A stretch of 51,711 nt of DNA from a virus. Below are positions 33,298 through 51,711 of this stretch, piece by piece; the first letter of the stretch is position 1; the number at the start of each line of letters is the position of its first letter. Position numbers and translations under genes: made by a program. Location: positions 1-51,711 of IMG/VR virus record IMGVR_UViG_3300045922_000428. One strand, 5' to 3'. The notes beneath the pieces are model-generated. The model was not told the DNA's origin. It was given only the letters and a program-made list of their open reading frames with translations, and did not search any database.

Positions 33298-35600
33298 GCA
33301 ACACTCTATTCAGCGGGTACATCCCTAACGGCCGTCAACAATTCTATGATGCCGTCGGCCGAGCGTTGGTCGGAGGGCGTGTGTTCACCTACAAGCCGGC
33401 AACGCTCATTCCAGTAACCACGTACCGGGACCAGACGCTGTCCACACCTAACACGAATCCAATCATTCTTGATGGCGCAGGCTTTGCCGACATCTACTCA
33501 GCGTCCGATATTCGTCAGATCGTACAAGATCAGAATGGCAACGTCATCTGGGACCGGATCTGCCGCCCGGTTTTGACCGCGTCATCCGGTGCGTTTTTTT
33601 CGTTGCCCGACATTGCGTCGTTGCAAGCAAACACCACGCCACTCTCCCACGTCTACGTTGAAGGGTACTACACCTTCAACGACGGTGGTCAGGGCCTGTT
33701 CATCTGGGATCCAGCCGACACGGTTTCTACGTCCGATGGCGGAAGCATCATTGTGGATGCTAGCGGACGACGCTATTACCGCGACATGGAGCGTCGTGAC
33801 CTCATCAGTGTGCGTTGGTGGGGAGCTGCCGGCACTGGACTTGGAAATGACGCGCCCGCGATCCAAGCCTGTTTCAACTACGCGGCTTCTCATGGACTGA
33901 CACCGTTCGTACCAGCTGGCAACTACCGCACCACAGCGGCATTGTCTTTGGCAGAAGGCGCCAAAGGTATTCAGATGCAGGGCGTGATCCGCCCGACCGG
34001 TGGCTTTGTTGGGTTGACGCTGGGCAGCGGCGGAAGCGTCCGAAATCAAAATAAGGTTTACGGGCCTGTGCGTGTGGTTCGCGAGACCCAATCGGACTGG
34101 TCGTCGGAGGCAGACATCGGTGTTCGCATCTTCAACTTGGACAACGGTACGGCGATCATTGAGCAGGCTGAAAAGTTTACCATCAATGTGCAGTTGGCTA
34201 GCGAAGGCCGTGGCGTCGAAGACAGCAACTTCTACTATGGCCGCATCATTGATGGAAAAATCGGCGTCGATATGCGGACATTCCAACCGGGACCCAACAG
34301 CTACGTCAACTCAATCAGACACTACGGCGGGCACTTTGCATGCAGCAGTTCCACAAACACAACTTTGGACCGCTACGGCTTCAGGATGTCGCGAAACGCG
34401 CCTGGTGACTATGTACTGCACAATGGTCACAGGTTTTTTGGACCATCGTTTGAATTGCAGACCGGATCGTATCTGTCGATCCCGTTCCTTATGGAAGTTG
34501 ATGGGCGCGGCGTGCATGCTTACGGAATTCGCATGGAGGCGTGCTCACCGTTTGTGGCGCGGCACACATCGGCGATGAATGACTGTCTTTATGAAGTTGA
34601 GTTTGTCGGCACCTTTGGCCCGTATATCAGCATTTTGTACGACGCTTCCGCTACTCGAGCCGGTGGCACCATCAAAATAAGGCACCAGTCATGCGCGGCA
34701 TCTGAGACGCCGCGGCTGATTGCCGAGAACGCAAATATCAGAGCCACGGCGTTTCGGGACGTCCGTGATGACGTAAACGGCGTCGGGTTTGAGGGTCTGG
34801 CGGTTGCTTCGGGCAATCCGTCGGGCAGCCCCACCACGCTCAACACATTGATTTTTGGCGGGCTTTCCTCGTTTGGTCTGAATGCTGAAGATATCACAGT
34901 GCCGACGTCGCGCGCCGTGGGCTTCGTAATCAAGACGGATACAGTCCCAAATACTTTTGGACTGCTTCGTGAATACACCATTGCGGCCGAAGGATCCGAG
35001 TTGCGGCCTGTCGTAGTGCAATTTGATTCAAGCGAAAACGTCCTGACAAACACGTCTCCATTGTTGTTTTCAAATGCAAACGCTACGTGGGTTGGTGCGC
35101 CGTCATACTTCTGGGAAACCAACGTCAACATAGACCAGCTGTCGGCTGGCCTCCCACTGTTTTTCTGGCAGCGTGTGACCCTCCACGCGAATTGCGCCTT
35201 TGCTTTTATCGGGGTTCGCGGAGGCTCTGCTTCCGCGCGCCTGCGTGCACTCCGTCTGTACGCCCAACCACTACTTTCGCCACAAGTAATTTTTGGCAAC
35301 TCACGACGGTGGGGCAGCAGATTTTCGAGAGCCGAGGCCGACTGGACCGTGCCATCTCTTAGCTCAGGTGCCACGACCACTTTTGACATCACGGTGCCCG
35401 GTATTCGTCAAGGCGACTCGGTTCAGGTGGGCTTTGCCAAGACTTCAGGTTTCCAAAACGGCGGCGTAATTTTTCAGTCGGCAGTCGGCGGGATAGCATC
35501 GACGAACCAAGTCCGTGTCACCGCTCACAATATTTCAGGCGGTACGATTGTCGTTGGTGACGGCCGACTTTTTGTGACTGGCACGCGACCCTACGTCTGA
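33294..35600 (+). CDS. Tailspike with beta-helix (receptor-binding, possible depolymerase)
   Basis: 768 aa, ATGA overlap. The N-terminal ~110 residues look like a podoviral head-binding domain (GGRVFTYKPATLIPVTTYRDQ, NPIILDGAGFADIYSASDIRQIVQDQNGNVIWD). Next comes a FNDGGQGLFIWDP segment, then RWWGAAGTGLGNDAPAIQACFNYA, the usual start of a right-handed pectate-lyase-like beta-helix, and a beta-rich C-terminus. Such spikes bind and often cleave host surface polysaccharide. The gene ends overlapping the convergent dCMP deaminase gene by 10 bp. Confidence 0.85.
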   Translation: MSNTLFSGYIPNGRQQFYDAVGRALVGGRVFTYKPATLIPVTTYRDQTLSTPNTNPIILDGAGFADIYSASDIRQIVQDQNGNVIWDRICRPVLTASSGAFFSLPDIASLQANTTPLSHVYVEGYYTFNDGGQGLFIWDPADTVSTSDGGSIIVDASGRRYYRDMERRDLISVRWWGAAGTGLGNDAPAIQACFNYAASHGLTPFVPAGNYRTTAALSLAEGAKGIQMQGVIRPTGGFVGLTLGSGGSVRNQNKVYGPVRVVRETQSDWSSEADIGVRIFNLDNGTAIIEQAEKFTINVQLASEGRGVEDSNFYYGRIIDGKIGVDMRTFQPGPNSYVNSIRHYGGHFACSSSTNTTLDRYGFRMSRNAPGDYVLHNGHRFFGPSFELQTGSYLSIPFLMEVDGRGVHAYGIRMEACSPFVARHTSAMNDCLYEVEFVGTFGPYISILYDASATRAGGTIKIRHQSCAASETPRLIAENANIRATAFRDVRDDVNGVGFEGLAVASGNPSGSPTTLNTLIFGGLSSFGLNAEDITVPTSRAVGFVIKTDTVPNTFGLLREYTIAAEGSELRPVVVQFDSSENVLTNTSPLLFSNANATWVGAPSYFWETNVNIDQLSAGLPLFFWQRVTLHANCAFAFIGVRGGSASARLRALRLYAQPLLSPQVIFGNSRRWGSRFSRAEADWTVPSLSSGATTTFDITVPGIRQGDSVQVGFAKTSGFQNGGVIFQSAVGGIASTNQVRVTAHNISGGTIVVGDGRLFVTGTRPYV

Positions 35601-36172
35601 AGACTGACGTGAGGCATCTGGACCCACCGATCTAACAGCCGTGACTTGCGGTAGTCACAGGATTGGCCGAAGGATACCATGCGTTGTTCCCAAGAACTGA
35701 GCCAAAGATCCTTGGCCTCTTGGTGCGGGTACTCGTGGACAAAGTAGATTGAAGAACACCAGGTGTTCATGAGCATCTTGACGCAATGTATGCACGGGCT
35801 GTGTGTGACGTAGCACGCGTCAATCTTTGTGTGGTCTCTCACCTGGATCAATGCATTCTGCTCAGCGTGGATGGCGTGGCAACCGTCCAAGTTGGTCCCC
35901 GAAGCGCTTGACGCGCCGGGGCACCTGTACGGGTAATCCAATTGCATTGAGCCGTCTGCGGCCGTAGAGTACCGGGGCTCGTTGCAGTGATCAACACCCG
36001 AGGCCACTCCGTTGTACCCAGTGCTGAGCACAAAGCCGTTGACGTCCAACAACACGCATCCGACACGGCGGCGAAGGCACGTCGACCGTTGCGCCGTAAC
36101 AAGCGCCAACTTCAACGCCCATTGATGACGACAGATGCGGCCGTATGTTGCTGACGTGGTCGTTGTGTCCAT
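35591..36172 (-). CDS. dCMP deaminase
   Basis: 193 aa from ATG 36172 with GGAGA. The zinc/proton-shuttle motif is HAEQNAL (102-108; His102, Glu104) with PCIHC (126-130) as the other zinc ligands; more Cys and His near residues 63-99 suggest the extra zinc site of T4-type dCMP deaminases. It converts dCMP to dUMP, feeding the thymidylate synthase-fold enzyme encoded upstream. It is the last gene of the leftward cluster. Confidence 0.9.
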   Translation of the reverse strand: MDTTTTSATYGRICRHQWALKLALVTAQRSTCLRRRVGCVLLDVNGFVLSTGYNGVASGVDHCNEPRYSTAADGSMQLDYPYRCPGASSASGTNLDGCHAIHAEQNALIQVRDHTKIDACYVTHSPCIHCVKMLMNTWCSSIYFVHEYPHQEAKDLWLSSWEQRMVSFGQSCDYRKSRLLDRWVQMPHVSLQT

Positions 36173-36274
36173 GTGACATTCTCCAAAAGTAGCAGCGCGA
36201 ACCAAGATCTGCCCGCGCTGCCGAAATGGTCAGAATGTAGTGCTCTCTGCGACTAGGACTGCCATACTCTACAC

Positions 36275-37114
36275 CTAGGCGCAGCTGATACGTGACAGCA
36301 ACCCGTGGTCCGAGATGCCGCCGTGGTGCCGCGACGACTCCAAGAATTCGACGATGTCTTCGGGCGTCATGGGCAGCACACTGCTCAGAGGACGACACCG
36401 CGACACGTAGTGCGCAGGTGCTGGCTCGTTCAGAAGCTCAGTGCTCTGCGCAAGGTGGGAGGCGTAGAGGTGGCTGCTCCCAATGTTCAAGAACAGCGTC
36501 CCTAGACGCGGCGGCTTGATGTTACCGACGCGCACGGCAGTGGCTGCCACATAGGCCGTCATCATGGTGAAGTTGAAGATGTCATAAGGCACCCCCAACC
36601 AAATGTCTGAAGAACGCATGTTGACGACTGTGTGGATCTCCGTGTCTTCGGGGACCAGCGGGGACCTGCGGATCAGAAACTGCATGGACACGGTGCACGG
36701 GATGTCTTTGCTCGGTCCTGGGTTAGATTTCCAGGTGGTCAGCACTGCCTGACGGGTATCTGGCTCAAACGCCAGCTTTGACACCACGTAGTGGAGCTGT
36801 CTGATGAACTCAGGACCGTAGGCGCCGTCAAACGTGACGCCGTTGTTGGAGAAGCTGGAGATGTTCTTGTTGTACGGGGCGATGCCCGCGACGCTGTTGT
36901 CGCCAGTGATGATCCAGTAGGCCTCTGCCGCCATGAACTTGTAATTCAGTGCACGACGTTTGAACGTGATGACGGGATAGTCCATCATGATCCTGAGCTG
37001 TGTGCCCAGGATCTCCCGCGTCTGCATGCCGCGCGGAGCCACCTGACGGTCTTCCGCGGCGTAGAGCTTCCTGAGCTGGCCCAGCCAGGCATCGTTGGCA
37101 AGATCTGAATACAT
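36275..37114 (-). CDS. Thymidylate synthase-fold dNMP hydroxymethylase or synthase
   Basis: 279 aa, ATG 37114 with AAGGAGAAG. Fold motifs: GAYGPEFIRQL, DTRQAVLTTW, catalytic Cys140 in IPCTVSMQF, MRSSDIWLGVPYDIFNF, and LGTLFLNIGSSHLYASH. In thymidylate synthase the residue after PF/PY is Asn, which reads the uracil edge; here it is Asp178, as at Asp179 of T4 dCMP hydroxymethylase, and TS-type PCH is PCT. So a hydroxymethylase acting on dCMP (or dUMP) is at least as likely as dTMP synthesis. Its neighbours support base modification. Confidence 0.8.
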   Translation of the reverse strand: MYSDLANDAWLGQLRKLYAAEDRQVAPRGMQTREILGTQLRIMMDYPVITFKRRALNYKFMAAEAYWIITGDNSVAGIAPYNKNISSFSNNGVTFDGAYGPEFIRQLHYVVSKLAFEPDTRQAVLTTWKSNPGPSKDIPCTVSMQFLIRRSPLVPEDTEIHTVVNMRSSDIWLGVPYDIFNFTMMTAYVAATAVRVGNIKPPRLGTLFLNIGSSHLYASHLAQSTELLNEPAPAHYVSRCRPLSSVLPMTPEDIVEFLESSRHHGGISDHGLLSRISCA

Positions 37115-37135
37115 TGAGGCTTCTCCTTCTCCTTC

Positions 37136-38197
37136 CTACTTGTTCGTAAAGAACGCTTCGGCAAACGGGTACTCGCCGTCAGAAAAGCGCATGTGGTGCG
37201 CCGGGTGTGGCAGCTTGAAGACTGTCGTCTTTGACTTCGCCTCGCGCAGGTTCTTCTTGTGTTTCAACTTGGCAATCGCCGCCAACATGGTTGAGACCTT
37301 GTCATGCGCCGTGTTGCCGAGACAGATGATGCGTCGCGGAGAAGACGGGCAGCACGCTAACCACGCCCGGAACCATTCTGACATCTTTGGACAGTCCTGG
37401 TTGCCCCAGAACAGATCCCTCTCCGGTATCTTGTGCTGCTCCAACACGTCTGTCAGATAGGCGCTGCATCCCTGGCGCCAGAACGAGACAAACGGATATT
37501 GCACAAGATGATCATGTGGGCGATGGTTCGCGAACGACTCGCCGACCACAAGGACGCGCGCTTCCATATTCCCTGCGGTGCGCCATCCCGCCATCTGAGT
37601 CGGTCCGAAAGCCGACCCAAGATCTGACGTTTGCAGGTACTCCACAAGGAGGTCGAATGTGTCCTGCTCGGGCTCATCGAACTTGTATGTTTTTGTGCGA
37701 AGTCCCCAGCAATTTTTGGCGTACCCCTCGTCATAGAAGGCCACGACGCGGCTCCACTGCGCCTCGTCATCCAGCATCTCAGAGCCGCCGGCCAGCCGCC
37801 GTCTGAATTCTTCGACCATCCTGCTCCGATCGGGGCGGCAATAGACGATCCACGGCTTGCACCGCAACGCCACGCGTTGAAGCATGCGGGCGTAGACGCT
37901 TGGGACGCGAAGCGCGCTGTTTGGACGGTAGACCGCATGATAGTACGGCTCAGAGATCCAGCTGCGGTCCATGACGACCGGCGCCAGGCCCTGAAGCGCC
38001 GGCATCATAGCGTCCATGTAGATGCAACACAGTCTTTCGTCTGTGATGTGCTTGAATGAGCCGAGATGCATGCCGAGCACGCGGCGGCCAAGAGGTGCCT
38101 CCAGCAGATTGTGCAGGAGAGTGGACTTTCCAGCGCAATCAGGACCCTCTAAGATCAGCAACGGCTTTGCAGCCGTCGATCTGTTTTCAATGATCAC
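37136..38197 (-). CDS. P-loop dNMP kinase fused to a uracil-DNA-glycosylase-like domain
   Basis: 353 aa from GTG 38197, seven bases after GAGGAG; upstream in-frame codons overlap the MazG gene. Residues 1-195 are a thymidylate-kinase-like P-loop domain (GPDCAGKST, 18-26; VVMDRSWISEPYYH, a DRxxxS-type motif). Residues 212-353 read ARVLVVGES, then PFVSFWRQGCSAYLTDVL, WGNQDC, RRIICLGNTA and KLPHPAHHMRF, the order of UDG-superfamily motifs. This fusion is not one I know. The kinase could phosphorylate a modified dNMP or a hydroxymethyl base; the glycosylase-like half may act on bases in DNA. Confidence 0.7.
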   Translation of the reverse strand: MIIENRSTAAKPLLILEGPDCAGKSTLLHNLLEAPLGRRVLGMHLGSFKHITDERLCCIYMDAMMPALQGLAPVVMDRSWISEPYYHAVYRPNSALRVPSVYARMLQRVALRCKPWIVYCRPDRSRMVEEFRRRLAGGSEMLDDEAQWSRVVAFYDEGYAKNCWGLRTKTYKFDEPEQDTFDLLVEYLQTSDLGSAFGPTQMAGWRTAGNMEARVLVVGESFANHRPHDHLVQYPFVSFWRQGCSAYLTDVLEQHKIPERDLFWGNQDCPKMSEWFRAWLACCPSSPRRIICLGNTAHDKVSTMLAAIAKLKHKKNLREAKSKTTVFKLPHPAHHMRFSDGEYPFAEAFFTNK

Positions 38198-38684
38198 GGC
38201 ACCGCTCCTCCACGATCCCGAACATGTCGCAGTATGGCTCTTCGTCAAAGCCAAACCTGGTCAGGATCTCCTCAATGTTTGGAGGCGTCCAGCCCTCCGG
38301 CTTCATCAGATCGACCGCGTGGCCGCGTTTGGTCGCGCCACGCTCCTTGCTCATGTTGGCCCTGTGGACCTCGTCCCAGAGCTGTTGGAACGGCAAGCCG
38401 AGGATGACTGCGGTACCGATGGCGAAGTAGACCAAGTCGACCAGCGCATCGGCCTGCTTGACCAGGTCCTGGACCATGGCGGCGTCCTGGAATTCCTGAA
38501 GCTCCTCCATCATGCACGCAGCGCGCTCCTGCAACAGCCGTCGCGTAGCCAGGCCTGGCACCAGATGGTTGCAAAAGCCAAACTTTCGGTGCATGCGCAG
38601 AACGTCACAGAACAGGTTCCCGTGAGTGGACAGAAGATCCTCGACGTTGTTGCAACCGGGGACCGTGTCATTGTTGCTGCTCAT
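38187..38684 (-). CDS. MazG-like all-alpha NTP pyrophosphatase
   Basis: 165 aa, ATG 38684 with AGGAG. Motif EELQEFQDAA, then a helix with QADALVDLVYFAIGTAVILG (the ExxE...DxxxD type metal-binding helices) and WDEVHRANMSKERG. These are features of the MazG/PRA-PH-like family that hydrolyses dNTPs to dNMPs. In phages with modified DNA such enzymes remove the normal dNTP. It overlaps both the methyltransferase and kinase genes. Confidence 0.75.
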   Translation of the reverse strand: MSSNNDTVPGCNNVEDLLSTHGNLFCDVLRMHRKFGFCNHLVPGLATRRLLQERAACMMEELQEFQDAAMVQDLVKQADALVDLVYFAIGTAVILGLPFQQLWDEVHRANMSKERGATKRGHAVDLMKPEGWTPPNIEEILTRFGFDEEPYCDMFGIVEERCRDH

Positions 38685-39598
38685 CGCGTCTTGCTCCTGG
38701 TGGGGGCCGACGACTTGGCGCCGACCATGTTCTTGAGAGTGAACACTCTGACGAAATCGCTGGACGAACTGTGCTTCTCCGGCTCCTTGAGAAATGGATC
38801 CAACATCTTCTGCGTCAGAACTGGAGCCTCGCCGACATCAACATGCCACAAGCAGTTGCGTGAATATTCTGGATAGAGTGGTGCAAAGATGACTGCCAGC
38901 AACTCGGTGTTGTAGTATCCCGACAACTGATCAAACAGACCGCGCCACGACACGGGCAGCCGGTCCTTGTAATCACGTTTGGACGCAAAAGTGCCCCACA
39001 CGTGCTTGATCTTGAACCCCGCCCAACCGAGCATGGCTTGCATGAGCGGGAAACTCATCTCGCTGACGTGGTTGTCGGCAGCGCCAACGCGAGGGTCGTA
39101 GACCGGGGTCGAAATCATGGCCTCGCCGCCACTCTCGGCGACCAACTGGCGCATGAGACAGAGCATACGGAAAGCGTGGTCGGCCTCCACGTGCTCGAGC
39201 ACCTCAAAGCATGTGATCAAATCAAACCCACGCTTGTCCACGACTGCCTTCCGGGCCCAGTCCTCGAAGTCGGTGCGCTGGACAAACTCATGCTTCTGAG
39301 AGTTGGCAAAGACCCTCAGAGCTTCTTCGTTGATAGGTCCGTGGTCGATCCCGACATAACGGCCTGTGACAAACGTGAGCTGCGAGGTGTAGAGCGTCAT
39401 GGCGAGTGGCAATTCTCGCCCGCACCCGACGTCCAGAATGCGCGCCGTCTTGTACAGGTTGTTCTTGCGCAGGTACTTGACAACATGGTTCCACCTCAGA
39501 CAATGGGCAATGTAGTCGCGGTGGATGTACCCGCGCCTTGTGGCATGGTTCAACGAAAGGTAGGTGTTGTCGATAGATTTCCCACGCGCGTTAGCCAC
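38681..39598 (-). CDS. Class I SAM-dependent methyltransferase
   Basis: 305 aa, GTG 39598 with GGGAGA. Motif I ILDVGCGRELPLA, acidic loop YVGIDHGPI, motif IV-like FDLITCFEVLEHVEAD, then a Rossmann C-terminal half. No DNA target-recognition domain or NPPY motif is visible, so it is more like a small-molecule or nucleotide methyltransferase than a classic restriction-type enzyme. It is first in the five-gene modification cluster. Confidence 0.75.
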   Translation of the reverse strand: MANARGKSIDNTYLSLNHATRRGYIHRDYIAHCLRWNHVVKYLRKNNLYKTARILDVGCGRELPLAMTLYTSQLTFVTGRYVGIDHGPINEEALRVFANSQKHEFVQRTDFEDWARKAVVDKRGFDLITCFEVLEHVEADHAFRMLCLMRQLVAESGGEAMISTPVYDPRVGAADNHVSEMSFPLMQAMLGWAGFKIKHVWGTFASKRDYKDRLPVSWRGLFDQLSGYYNTELLAVIFAPLYPEYSRNCLWHVDVGEAPVLTQKMLDPFLKEPEKHSSSSDFVRVFTLKNMVGAKSSAPTRSKTR

Positions 39599-39680: not shown

Positions 39681-40196
39681 TCAGTCCTCGCTCGAGCTCT
39701 CAGGGGCCGGCGCCGACGGCTTCTTCTTGGGCGCCCGGACACTGGTCTTCCCCGAAACGCCCTTGTCCTTGGCCGGCTTGGCCGCGGAGACCTTCTTGGC
39801 CTCCTTGGTCGCCTTGGCCTCCTTGGTCGCCTTGGTCTTGGCGGGCTCGACATTCTCCTTGGCCGGACGCACGGCGGCCGGCGGGTTCTGACCCTCCTTG
39901 CGCAGCTGACCACGGAACCAGGAGACATAGACGACGTGCTTGTCGGGCATCTCCGGGAACTTCTCGCGGGTCTTCTCGAAGATCTGACGATCGGTCAACG
40001 GGTTGGGTCCCGTGTTGGCCATGATCAGCGCCTTCATGACGGACGAGATGGACTCGGCCCGCGGCTTCTTGGCGACCGGCAGACGCTTGTCCTTCGGAGG
40101 CATGGGAAGCGGCTTGTTGGGCCGCGCCTTCTTCTTGGCGGTCTTGGTGGTCTCGATGGTCTCGGTGGTCTCAACGGTCTCGGTGTTCTCACTCAT
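39681..40196 (-). CDS. WYR-module protein with histone-like Lys/Ala-rich tail (copy 2 of 3)
   Basis: 171 aa from ATG 40196 with AAGGAG. Thr/Glu-rich start, then Lys/Pro-rich linker, then the shared module (SVMKALIMAN, LTDRQIFEKTREKFPEMPD, VYVSWFRGQLRKEG), then about 60 residues of Lys/Ala/Pro repeats (AKTKATKEAKATKEAKK). The tail resembles histone H1-like bacterial proteins and would bind DNA non-specifically. A role in coating phage DNA or tethering the module to DNA is inferred. Own promoter and terminator. Confidence 0.65.
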   Translation of the reverse strand: MSENTETVETTETIETTKTAKKKARPNKPLPMPPKDKRLPVAKKPRAESISSVMKALIMANTGPNPLTDRQIFEKTREKFPEMPDKHVVYVSWFRGQLRKEGQNPPAAVRPAKENVEPAKTKATKEAKATKEAKKVSAAKPAKDKGVSGKTSVRAPKKKPSAPAPESSSED

Positions 40197-40264
40197 GGTG
40201 TGGCTCCTTGCCATGTTCAGAGAGCGGGGATCCGCGCCCTGTAGAAAAAATCCAGAGGCATCCT

Positions 40265-40307: not shown

Positions 40308-40916
40308 TCAGACCTTCTTCAGCAGGCCTTTCTTGACCAGTTCCTTTCGGTACCAGTCGACATAGCTGCGGCGATTGTCGGGCAGCCCGAATTTCTCCTG
40401 CACCCGCTTGAAGATCATGTCGTCAGACAGCTCACCCGCAAGGATCAGTGACCTGAACAGGCTGGCGGCAGTCTCCTTCTTCTCGCCAGGCTTCTTGGGA
40501 CCAACGTTCTTCTCCTTGGCCGCTCTGGCCGGCTTCTCGCGACTCGGCTCGTCCGCCTCGTCGGAGGCATACGGGTCGTTGGCCTGCGCTCGATCCTGGG
40601 CCCGCCTCTCACGCACGGCGCGGAGAAGCGTGACCAGCTCGGTCAATTGGACGCCGGCCACGGCCGGTGTCGCATGGACCATTACGTGCTGATCGGTCTC
40701 GGACTCGATCTTCGCGAGCCCTCGTTCGACCAGCTCGTCGATCCCAGCGGTTCCGCCGTAGACCCTGCCGCTGCCAGGCATCTTCCACGTCCGCTTGCCG
40801 ACCTGCCAGGACACGGGACGCTCACCACGCTCGACCCTGAGCGGGTCCGCCAGCCAGGTCGACATCAACTGCCTCAACATGATCAAGGCATCGTCAGACA
40901 GTCCTTCCAATTTCAT
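40308..40916 (-). CDS. WYR-module protein (copy 3 of 3)
   Basis: 202 aa, ATG 40916 with GAGGAG. The N-terminal 90 residues (LSDDALIMLRQLMSTWLADP, WKMPGSGRVYGG) form a winged-helix-like region; then an Arg/Lys-rich linker; then the module SLFRSLILAGELSDDMIFKRVQEKFGLPDN, YVDWYRKELVKKG at the C-terminus. Likely DNA-binding. Immediately downstream of a near-consensus promoter. Confidence 0.65.
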   Translation of the reverse strand: MKLEGLSDDALIMLRQLMSTWLADPLRVERGERPVSWQVGKRTWKMPGSGRVYGGTAGIDELVERGLAKIESETDQHVMVHATPAVAGVQLTELVTLLRAVRERRAQDRAQANDPYASDEADEPSREKPARAAKEKNVGPKKPGEKKETAASLFRSLILAGELSDDMIFKRVQEKFGLPDNRRSYVDWYRKELVKKGLLKKV

Positions 40917-51536: not shown

Positions 51537-51711
51537 CGCCGCGTCTCCATCGCCTGCTGGCACTTGATGCACCGCCGCGCCGCCGGGTGCGCGCGCCGCC
51601 TCATCTCCGGGATCACCGCGCCGCAATCGCAGCACTCGCGCGCGTCCACCGCCTCTAGCTGCCGCTGCGCGTGCGCCACGCGGGCGGCGATCAGCGCAGC
51701 CTCGCGCGCTT
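51533..51711 (-). CDS. TraR/DksA-like C4 zinc-finger protein (C-terminal part, copy at right end)
   Basis: Right-end portion of the zinc-finger gene that starts at 146 after circularisation. It carries the four metal-binding cysteines: a Cys-Asp-Cys-Gly pair, then Cys-Ile-Lys-Cys. The stop codon (51533-51535) overlaps the ATG of the downstream gene at 51536 as ATGA. It is the same gene as the left-end fragment, not a second copy. Confidence 0.8.
   Translation of the reverse strand, partial: AREAALIAARVAHAQRQLEAVDARECCDCGAVIPEMRRRAHPAARRCIKCQQAMETRR
51591..51711. repeat. Terminal direct repeat, right copy
   Basis: Exact copy of positions 1-121. It lies inside the TraR/DksA-like zinc-finger gene, which is whole once the ends are joined. 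Confidence 0.95.

Follow-up and report, generated by a model that had tools for sequence, protein, structure and literature searches.

The window analysed here, IMG/VR virus record IMGVR_UViG_3300045922_000428 at its full length of 51,711 nucleotides, carries on its minus strand five adjacent genes that very probably encode a pathway modifying the cytosines of the phage genome to 5-hydroxymethylcytosine (5hmC) or a base of that type. The cassette comprises an S-adenosylmethionine (SAM)-dependent methyltransferase, a MazG-like pyrophosphohydrolase, a kinase fused to a domain of the uracil-DNA glycosylase (UDG) superfamily, an enzyme of the thymidylate synthase (TS) fold and a dCMP deaminase (Table 1), and hydroxymethylation of cytosine by the TS-fold enzyme is strongly supported. 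A preliminary description, made from the sequence alone, had read these leftward genes as a route to a modified pyrimidine, perhaps further decorated. The gene families are borne out by Pfam and PHROG matches, and the pyrimidine can be narrowed to cytosine by a fully conserved Asp178 where the known 5-hydroxymethyluracil (5hmU) phages have Asn, by the restriction pattern of a cultured relative and by MetaGPA data; for further decoration, only the gene context speaks. Systems with a 5hmC core are already known; what is new is the fixed methyltransferase together with the kinase-UDG fusion.

The base read by the hydroxymethylase

The TS-fold enzyme was aligned with its relatives and with enzymes whose products are established (ThyA, SPO1 gp29, M6 gp58 and T4 gp42), and residue conservation was counted over 142 hydroxymethylase sequences. 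Asp178 and Cys140 lie where the preliminary description had placed them. At the base-reading position, T4 gp42 shares the Asp of the window enzyme, and E. coli ThyA, SPO1 gp29 (annotated as a dUMP hydroxymethylase) and M6 gp58 have Asn. Asp178 (equivalent to T4 Asp179) is present in 142 of 142 sequences, as are Cys140 (T4 Cys148) and Glu64 (equivalent to T4 Glu60). Asp137, the counterpart of T4 Asp145, precedes the catalytic Cys by three residues and is present in 140, with one Glu and one Asn in the remainder; this position is Asp in all the hydroxymethylases aligned and hydrophobic in ThyA. In T4, Asp145 and Asp179 are essential and have been proposed as signatures, Asp145 activating the water that ends up as the hydroxyl (PMC6400193).

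Two further invariant residues (142/142), Ser168 and Arg121, fall at positions 176 and 133 of MilA and are of the dCMP type in place of MilA's CMP-type residues; in MilA, the A176S/K133R exchange switches the enzyme from CMP to dCMP (PMC6400193). The top match in the Protein Data Bank (PDB) is MilA, a CMP (cytosine) hydroxymethylase, above all thymidylate synthases, and alignment with ThyA shows that the C-terminal tail of thymidylate synthases is absent from the window enzyme.

Recurrence of the cassette and the restriction of AXL3 DNA

Searches seeded with the hydroxymethylase, the methyltransferase and the kinase fusion, together with profile mapping of all loci, recovered all five genes at 89 other loci; 87 of these show the identical order methyltransferase-MazG-kinase(-UDG)-hydroxymethylase-deaminase, which puts the arrangement far beyond chance. 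Single-linkage clustering of the 90 loci by hydroxymethylase identity yields 70 clusters at 95%, 53 at 80% and 28 at 60%. The methyltransferase gave no match in IMG/VR as a single-sequence query; used as an alignment, it found 299 relatives, of which 80 were kept. A hydroxymethylase lies at most 1.9 kb from the methyltransferase in 68 of these 80 loci, and 11 of the other 12 end no more than 1.6 kb downstream of the methyltransferase. The exception, L073, is long enough; it has the methyltransferase, MazG and kinase-UDG genes (L073:7962-12647), and no hydroxymethylase was recognised there.

Among 50,697 phage records, the methyltransferase matched only Stenotrophomonas phage AXL3 (two records), Pseudoxanthomonas phage PW916 and two Manatee Spring phages, and every one of these carries the cassette. 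Across bacterial and archaeal genomes, scores like those of cassette members (>300 bits) were reached on only two contigs, all other matches being below 100 bits: one of the two (L163) ends close to the methyltransferase gene, and the other (L164), binned as a Lentisphaera metagenome-assembled genome, bears the full five-gene cassette with kinase-UDG and is probably a phage contig. The methyltransferase subfamily is, in sum, found almost only beside this hydroxymethylase. A minimal set of kinase and Asp-type hydroxymethylase occurs in Pelagibacter phage HTVC119P (L021:5448-6729), where the genes are annotated as a hypothetical protein and a thymidylate synthase, and suggests that this SAR11 phage may modify its cytosines; a further kinase match fell on AP013540.

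AXL3 (NC_071036) has the cassette including the kinase-UDG fusion, and its DNA has been digested with 37 enzymes: only TasI (AATT) and Tru1I (TTAA), with A/T-only sites, cut it, and the 35 with G or C in the site do not. Its authors left the modification unexplained and took gp28 and gp29 as enzymes of dTMP synthesis (PMC7504290). In the same way, MluCI (AATT) and MseI (TTAA) fully cut the DNA of T4, in which the 5hmC is glucosylated and which is resistant to 94% of enzymes (PMC7653180). A deazaguanine or a C5-methylase as the cause of the AXL3 resistance was considered and rejected, as profiles for TGT/DpdA, QueC and the C5-methylase family PF00145 matched nothing in AXL3 or the window, with positive controls. 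PW916 is ~90% identical to AXL3 and hence no independent case. In MetaGPA, an independent metagenomic study, C-modified environmental phage DNA was selected by its resistance to enzymatic deamination, and the C-modified contigs carry a TS domain with Asp177 together with PF01503 and PF00383, the decorator being a 5hmC carbamoyltransferase (PMC8670742).

Methyltransferase and kinase fusion in the proposed pathway

In the pathway that we propose, the MazG-like enzyme would convert dCTP (perhaps dUTP as well) to its monophosphate by hydrolysis; the TS-fold enzyme, to judge by its diagnostic residues, would then place a hydroxymethyl group on C5 of dCMP, from methylene-tetrahydrofolate and water. 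The kinase would phosphorylate 5hm-dCMP as T4 gp1 does, with host NDP kinase completing 5hm-dCTP, and the phage family-A polymerase would incorporate this instead of dCTP, while the deaminase would convert surplus dCMP to dUMP for dTMP synthesis. Family membership and analogy with T4 are the grounds for all of these steps except the hydroxymethylation. Finally, context and fold suggest that the methyltransferase may decorate 5hmC, at the nucleotide or the DNA level; the likeliest reaction would be O-methylation, either of the hydroxymethyl group itself or of a further group attached to it. The resulting DNA would be protected from bacterial restriction enzymes. For the first step, the MazG-like protein has DR2231 as a PDB relative and, over 13 relatives, keeps E60, E61, E64, D79, D83, N110 and K113 invariant.

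The kinase-UDG fusion occurs in 110 open reading frames (ORFs; 65 non-redundant at 80%), and the window copy matches the PHROG thymidylate kinase family (5.6e-15) and, above cut-off, Pfam UDG (PF03167, 2.2e-05). In an AlphaFold2 model of high confidence (pLDDT 92), the kinase half is closest to YorR (Z 15.7, root-mean-square deviation [rmsd] 2.8 Å over 168 residues), deoxynucleoside kinases and thymidylate kinases; the structure matches are filled by this half, and the UDG half was compared by sequence profile only. That profile finds family-4 UDG and UdgX best in the PDB (best E 0.008), a sequence-level relationship that is real but remote. The HP and Asn motifs are kept, whereas motif A, GEAPG, is not intact and reads VGESFANHRPHD in the window; the domain spans ~140 instead of ~200 residues. 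Because of the altered motif and short length, we call it a UDG-superfamily domain and not a glycosylase. A defence-type glycosylase was also considered and set aside, there being no meaningful PADLOC match, and a part in reading or discriminating bases is our guess.

The kinase half scores 3.2 bits against T4 gp1 and, over the 20 residues of the P-loop, a marginal 9.8 bits against M6 gp54, which we take to be the M6 kinase. A 5hmU-type DNA kinase was set aside as the less likely reading: the likeness to M6 gp54 is marginal, and kinase-UDG also occurs in two cassettes that have a separate gene for HMUDK_hel, the helical domain of a 5-hmdU DNA kinase, so that a dNMP kinase is preferred. Since the kinase is kept across decorator kits and in minimal kinase-hydroxymethylase sets such as that of HTVC119P, its likeliest role, by analogy, would be that of a 5hm-dCMP kinase.

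The methyltransferase (METHYLTRANSFERASE) gave an AlphaFold2 model with pLDDT 91. Its closest fold is CmoM (Z 18.0, rmsd 4.7 Å, 222 residues), tied with ChlM (Z 17.8, rmsd 3.0 Å, 191 residues), and its best sequence relatives are UbiG and Hen1. All four are O-methyltransferases, but other chemistries are also among the matches and a shared fold shows no function. Inspection of the sequence found neither the (D/N)PP(Y/F) motif of amino-methyltransferases nor the PCQ motif of C5-methylases. Both 5hmC as its substrate and the atom methylated are inferred from context and fold. On its best reading, the enzyme would be the decorator of a T4-like 5hmC pathway, in the slot that glucosyltransferases, a carbamoyltransferase or a pyridoxal phosphate (PLP) enzyme occupy in other systems.

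The distribution of decorators was counted over 67 suitably long loci that had not been selected via the methyltransferase. A PLP-type enzyme related to M6 gp52 was present alone in seven, the methyltransferase alone in 40, neither in 20 and both in none (Fisher p 0.001, indicative only, the loci being related), and the kinase(-UDG) accompanies either. The PLP enzymes (Table 1) have GDSL/SGNH-like and unassigned 330-440-residue proteins as neighbours and possibly belong to an amino-acid-based kit for decorating 5hmC; other cassettes lacking the methyltransferase have HMUDK_hel or GDSL/SGNH-type proteins. A carbamoyltransferase in the vacant slot was looked for and rejected: of the two such cassettes whose large ORF was tested, L006 has a DNA polymerase there and L013 a protein without a Pfam match. 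The constancy of the hydroxymethylase, and mostly of the kinase, across cassettes without the methyltransferase suggests an exchangeable decorator (methyltransferase, PLP enzyme or others) on a fixed 5hmC core.

We lean, by a modest degree of belief, toward the methyltransferase being a decorator of 5hmC. The strongest rival leaves the 5hmC core in place and differs in the last step: the methyltransferase would have another job, for example on a protein, an RNA or a host metabolite, and plain 5hmC would be the end product. We consider this rather doubtful, though it deserves serious weight, as the enzymes of similar fold include O-, N- and C-methyltransferases, with small molecules, RNA and proteins among their substrates, and some cassettes do without the gene. 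Against it, the methyltransferase gene nearly always leads the cassette, keeps almost exclusively to this hydroxymethylase and is not seen together with the PLP-type kit. More tentative than the decorator role, and something that we put forward as possible without favouring it, is the proposal that this would be the first known dedicated methylation decorator of 5hmC. The DNA of hundreds of uncultivated phages would then contain, for example, 5-methoxymethylcytosine, or else 5hmC that had been activated and methylated, and the UDG-fold domain would read bases or act as a transferase instead of a glycosylase. In the open-access papers searched, we found no report of methoxymethylcytosine in phage DNA or of this cassette.

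The remaining rivals concern the core itself, and we regard each as very improbable. The TS-fold enzyme could be a dCMP methylase producing 5-methylcytosine (5mC), as in Xanthomonas phage Xp12. Two enzymes of the AXL3 panel bear on this, KpnI and Eam1105I, the latter presumably an isoschizomer of AhdI. Xp12 DNA, in which 100% of the cytosine is 5mC, is cut fully by KpnI and AhdI (PMC7653180), whereas AXL3 DNA resists KpnI and Eam1105I (PMC7504290), which speaks against plain 5mC. Asn-to-Asp mutants of thymidylate synthase do yield 5-methyl-dCMP (cited in PMC8670742), but the Asp three residues before the Cys is the water-activating residue of hydroxymethylases.

Slightly less probable again is an ordinary dTMP-supply set of dCMP deaminase, thymidylate synthase, thymidylate kinase and pyrophosphatase, as the authors of the AXL3 and PW916 reports read it. 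Family names and database annotations agree with that reading, and dCMP deaminase and thymidylate synthase are often paired. It is at odds with the invariant Asp178 and nearly invariant Asp137, with the missing TS tail and with a methyltransferase fixed in the cassette; moreover, AXL3 already has ThyX, so that gp28 is not needed for dTMP, and its restriction resistance would be left unexplained. A dUMP hydroxymethylase giving DNA with 5hmU derivatives is just as improbable: the PW916 copy is annotated as a deoxyuridylate hydroxymethyltransferase, some relatives carry an M6 gp52-like PLP enzyme, and 5hmU hypermodification kits such as that of M6 likewise pair a kinase with a glycosylase-fold enzyme, but SPO1 gp29 and M6 gp58 have Asn where this clade has Asp throughout. 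Nor does the AXL3 pattern, with cutting at AATT and TTAA and not at G/C sites, resemble that of 5hmU DNA, which resisted only about 8% of enzymes (PMC7653180).

Several observations nevertheless weigh against a cytosine modification pathway of the kind proposed. The T4 signature residue Ser94, two before the active-site Tyr, is Gly97 in the window enzyme and Gly in 132 of the 142 sequences. Ser94 is also missing from the SPO1 and M6 hydroxymethylases, and T4 S94A retains about 25% activity. Because of this replacement, we treat the window enzyme as a putative separate cytosine-reading lineage that would work like T4 gp42 and not as a T4-type dCH. The MazG-like protein resembles T4 gp56 only very weakly (single-sequence search, E 0.0026). 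As for AXL3, its methyltransferase belongs to the other subgroup and is 28% identical to that of the window, its hydroxymethylase is about 40% identical, and its restriction panel separates neither bare from decorated 5hmC nor, by itself, C from G.

Genome context and comparison with known systems

Positions 1-121 and 51591-51711 of the window form an exact 121-bp direct terminal repeat, which indicates that the window probably holds the whole genome of a phage. All five cassette ORFs are open on the minus strand in tight leftward order. The coupling of the first three, also pointed out in the preliminary description, is evident in the ATGA overlap of the methyltransferase and MazG genes at 38681-38684 and in an 11-base overlap of the MazG and kinase genes, given a kinase start at GTG 38197; this start is more likely than the listed TTG 38254, from which the ORF is open. 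A gap of 21 bases separates the kinase and hydroxymethylase genes, and the deaminase more likely starts at ATG 36172 than at TTG 36205. Nearby replication genes encode a family-A DNA polymerase, a helicase and an exonuclease, and a plus-strand arm holds terminase, portal and major head genes. Separately, two adjacent minus-strand genes (39681-40214 and 40308-40916) encode proteins that contain lysine/alanine-rich linkers and resemble each other in their C-terminal segment (RQIFEKTREKFPEMPDKHVVYVSWFRGQLRK versus DMIFKRVQEKFGLPDNRRSYVDWYRKELVK), likely a duplicated small domain.

Table 1. Cassette genes of the window, and PLP enzymes and HMUDK_hel proteins at related loci. The PALP-type PLP enzymes lie beside an Asp-type hydroxymethylase at loci without the methyltransferase.
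Feature	Location	Strand	Family match or motif
SAM-dependent methyltransferase, class I Rossmann, O-methyltransferase-like; proposed 5hmC decorator	38681..39598	-	Pfam Methyltransf_23 2e-11
MazG-like all-alpha NTP pyrophosphohydrolase; proposed to supply the hydroxymethylase with dCMP as a dCTPase	38187..38684	-	PRA-PH PF01503 3e-16
Kinase-UDG fusion: P-loop dNMP-kinase-like (~10-200) and short UDG-superfamily domain (~205-350)	37136..38197	-	
TS-fold predicted dCMP hydroxymethylase	36275..37114	-	PF00303 1.6e-21; Cys140, Asp178, Asp137, Ser168, Arg121, Glu64
dCMP deaminase	35591..36205	-	PF00383 3.9e-17; PHROG dCMP deaminase 3.8e-31; Zn motifs HAE, PCxxC
PALP-type PLP enzyme	L140:7097-7999		
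PALP-type PLP enzyme	L155:7030-7992		
PALP-type PLP enzyme	L142:6653-7618		
PALP-type PLP enzyme	L130:4582-6117		
PALP-type PLP enzyme	L151:6531-7463		
PALP-type PLP enzyme	L152:6531-7463		
PALP-type PLP enzyme	L001:8004-8888		
PALP-type PLP enzyme	L005:3920-4903		
HMUDK_hel (5-hmdU DNA kinase helical domain) near cytosine-type hydroxymethylase cassette	L141:2858-3976		
HMUDK_hel (5-hmdU DNA kinase helical domain) near cytosine-type hydroxymethylase cassette	L149:5128-6039		

A cytosine modification cassette offers a specific and testable explanation for the restriction resistance of AXL3 and calls into question the "thymidylate synthase/kinase" annotations of cultured phages, including the Pelagibacter phages HTVC119P and HTVC200P, and of many uncultivated ones. 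The methyltransferase subfamily becomes a candidate for a new enzyme that decorates cytosine; enzymes of this kind find use as reagents in epigenetics and are relevant to restriction, CRISPR and glycosylase-type defences.

A close parallel is the 5hmC pathway of T4 (gp42, the gp56 dCTPase, the gp1 dNMP kinase, the cd deaminase and the glucosyltransferases), with the same steps and the same Asp/Asp/Cys hydroxymethylase chemistry. Unlike the scattered T4 genes, however, those of the cassette form one compact operon with a methyltransferase, no T4-type glucosyltransferase being recognised in the genes scanned; its kinase, weakly like gp1, is fused to a UDG-fold domain, and its hydroxymethylase is of another lineage, without Ser94. 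Phages with the 5hmC carbamoyltransferase share the Asp177-type TS, PF01503 and PF00383, but their decorator differs, and the main text of that report names no methyltransferase, kinase or glycosylase (PMC8670742).

Thymidine hypermodification in M6 and ViI is conceptually alike, with a hydroxymethylase, a kinase, a glycosylase-fold enzyme and tailoring enzymes, and some cassette relatives carry an M6 gp52-like PLP enzyme or HMUDK_hel proteins; the TS-like enzyme of M6, however, has the Asn that goes with uracil, and M6 gp54 bears only a marginal likeness to the cassette kinase. CmoM, the tRNA cmo5U34 carboxy-methyltransferase that tops the fold matches, methylates the C5 substituent of a pyrimidine, but at 17% identity and tied with ChlM and others, the likeness is no evidence of the same substrate. 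AXL3 and PW916 share with the window all five genes, their order and the kinase-UDG fusion, and differ from it in their methyltransferases, which are 27-29% identical to that of the window, and in having these genes annotated as dTMP synthesis.

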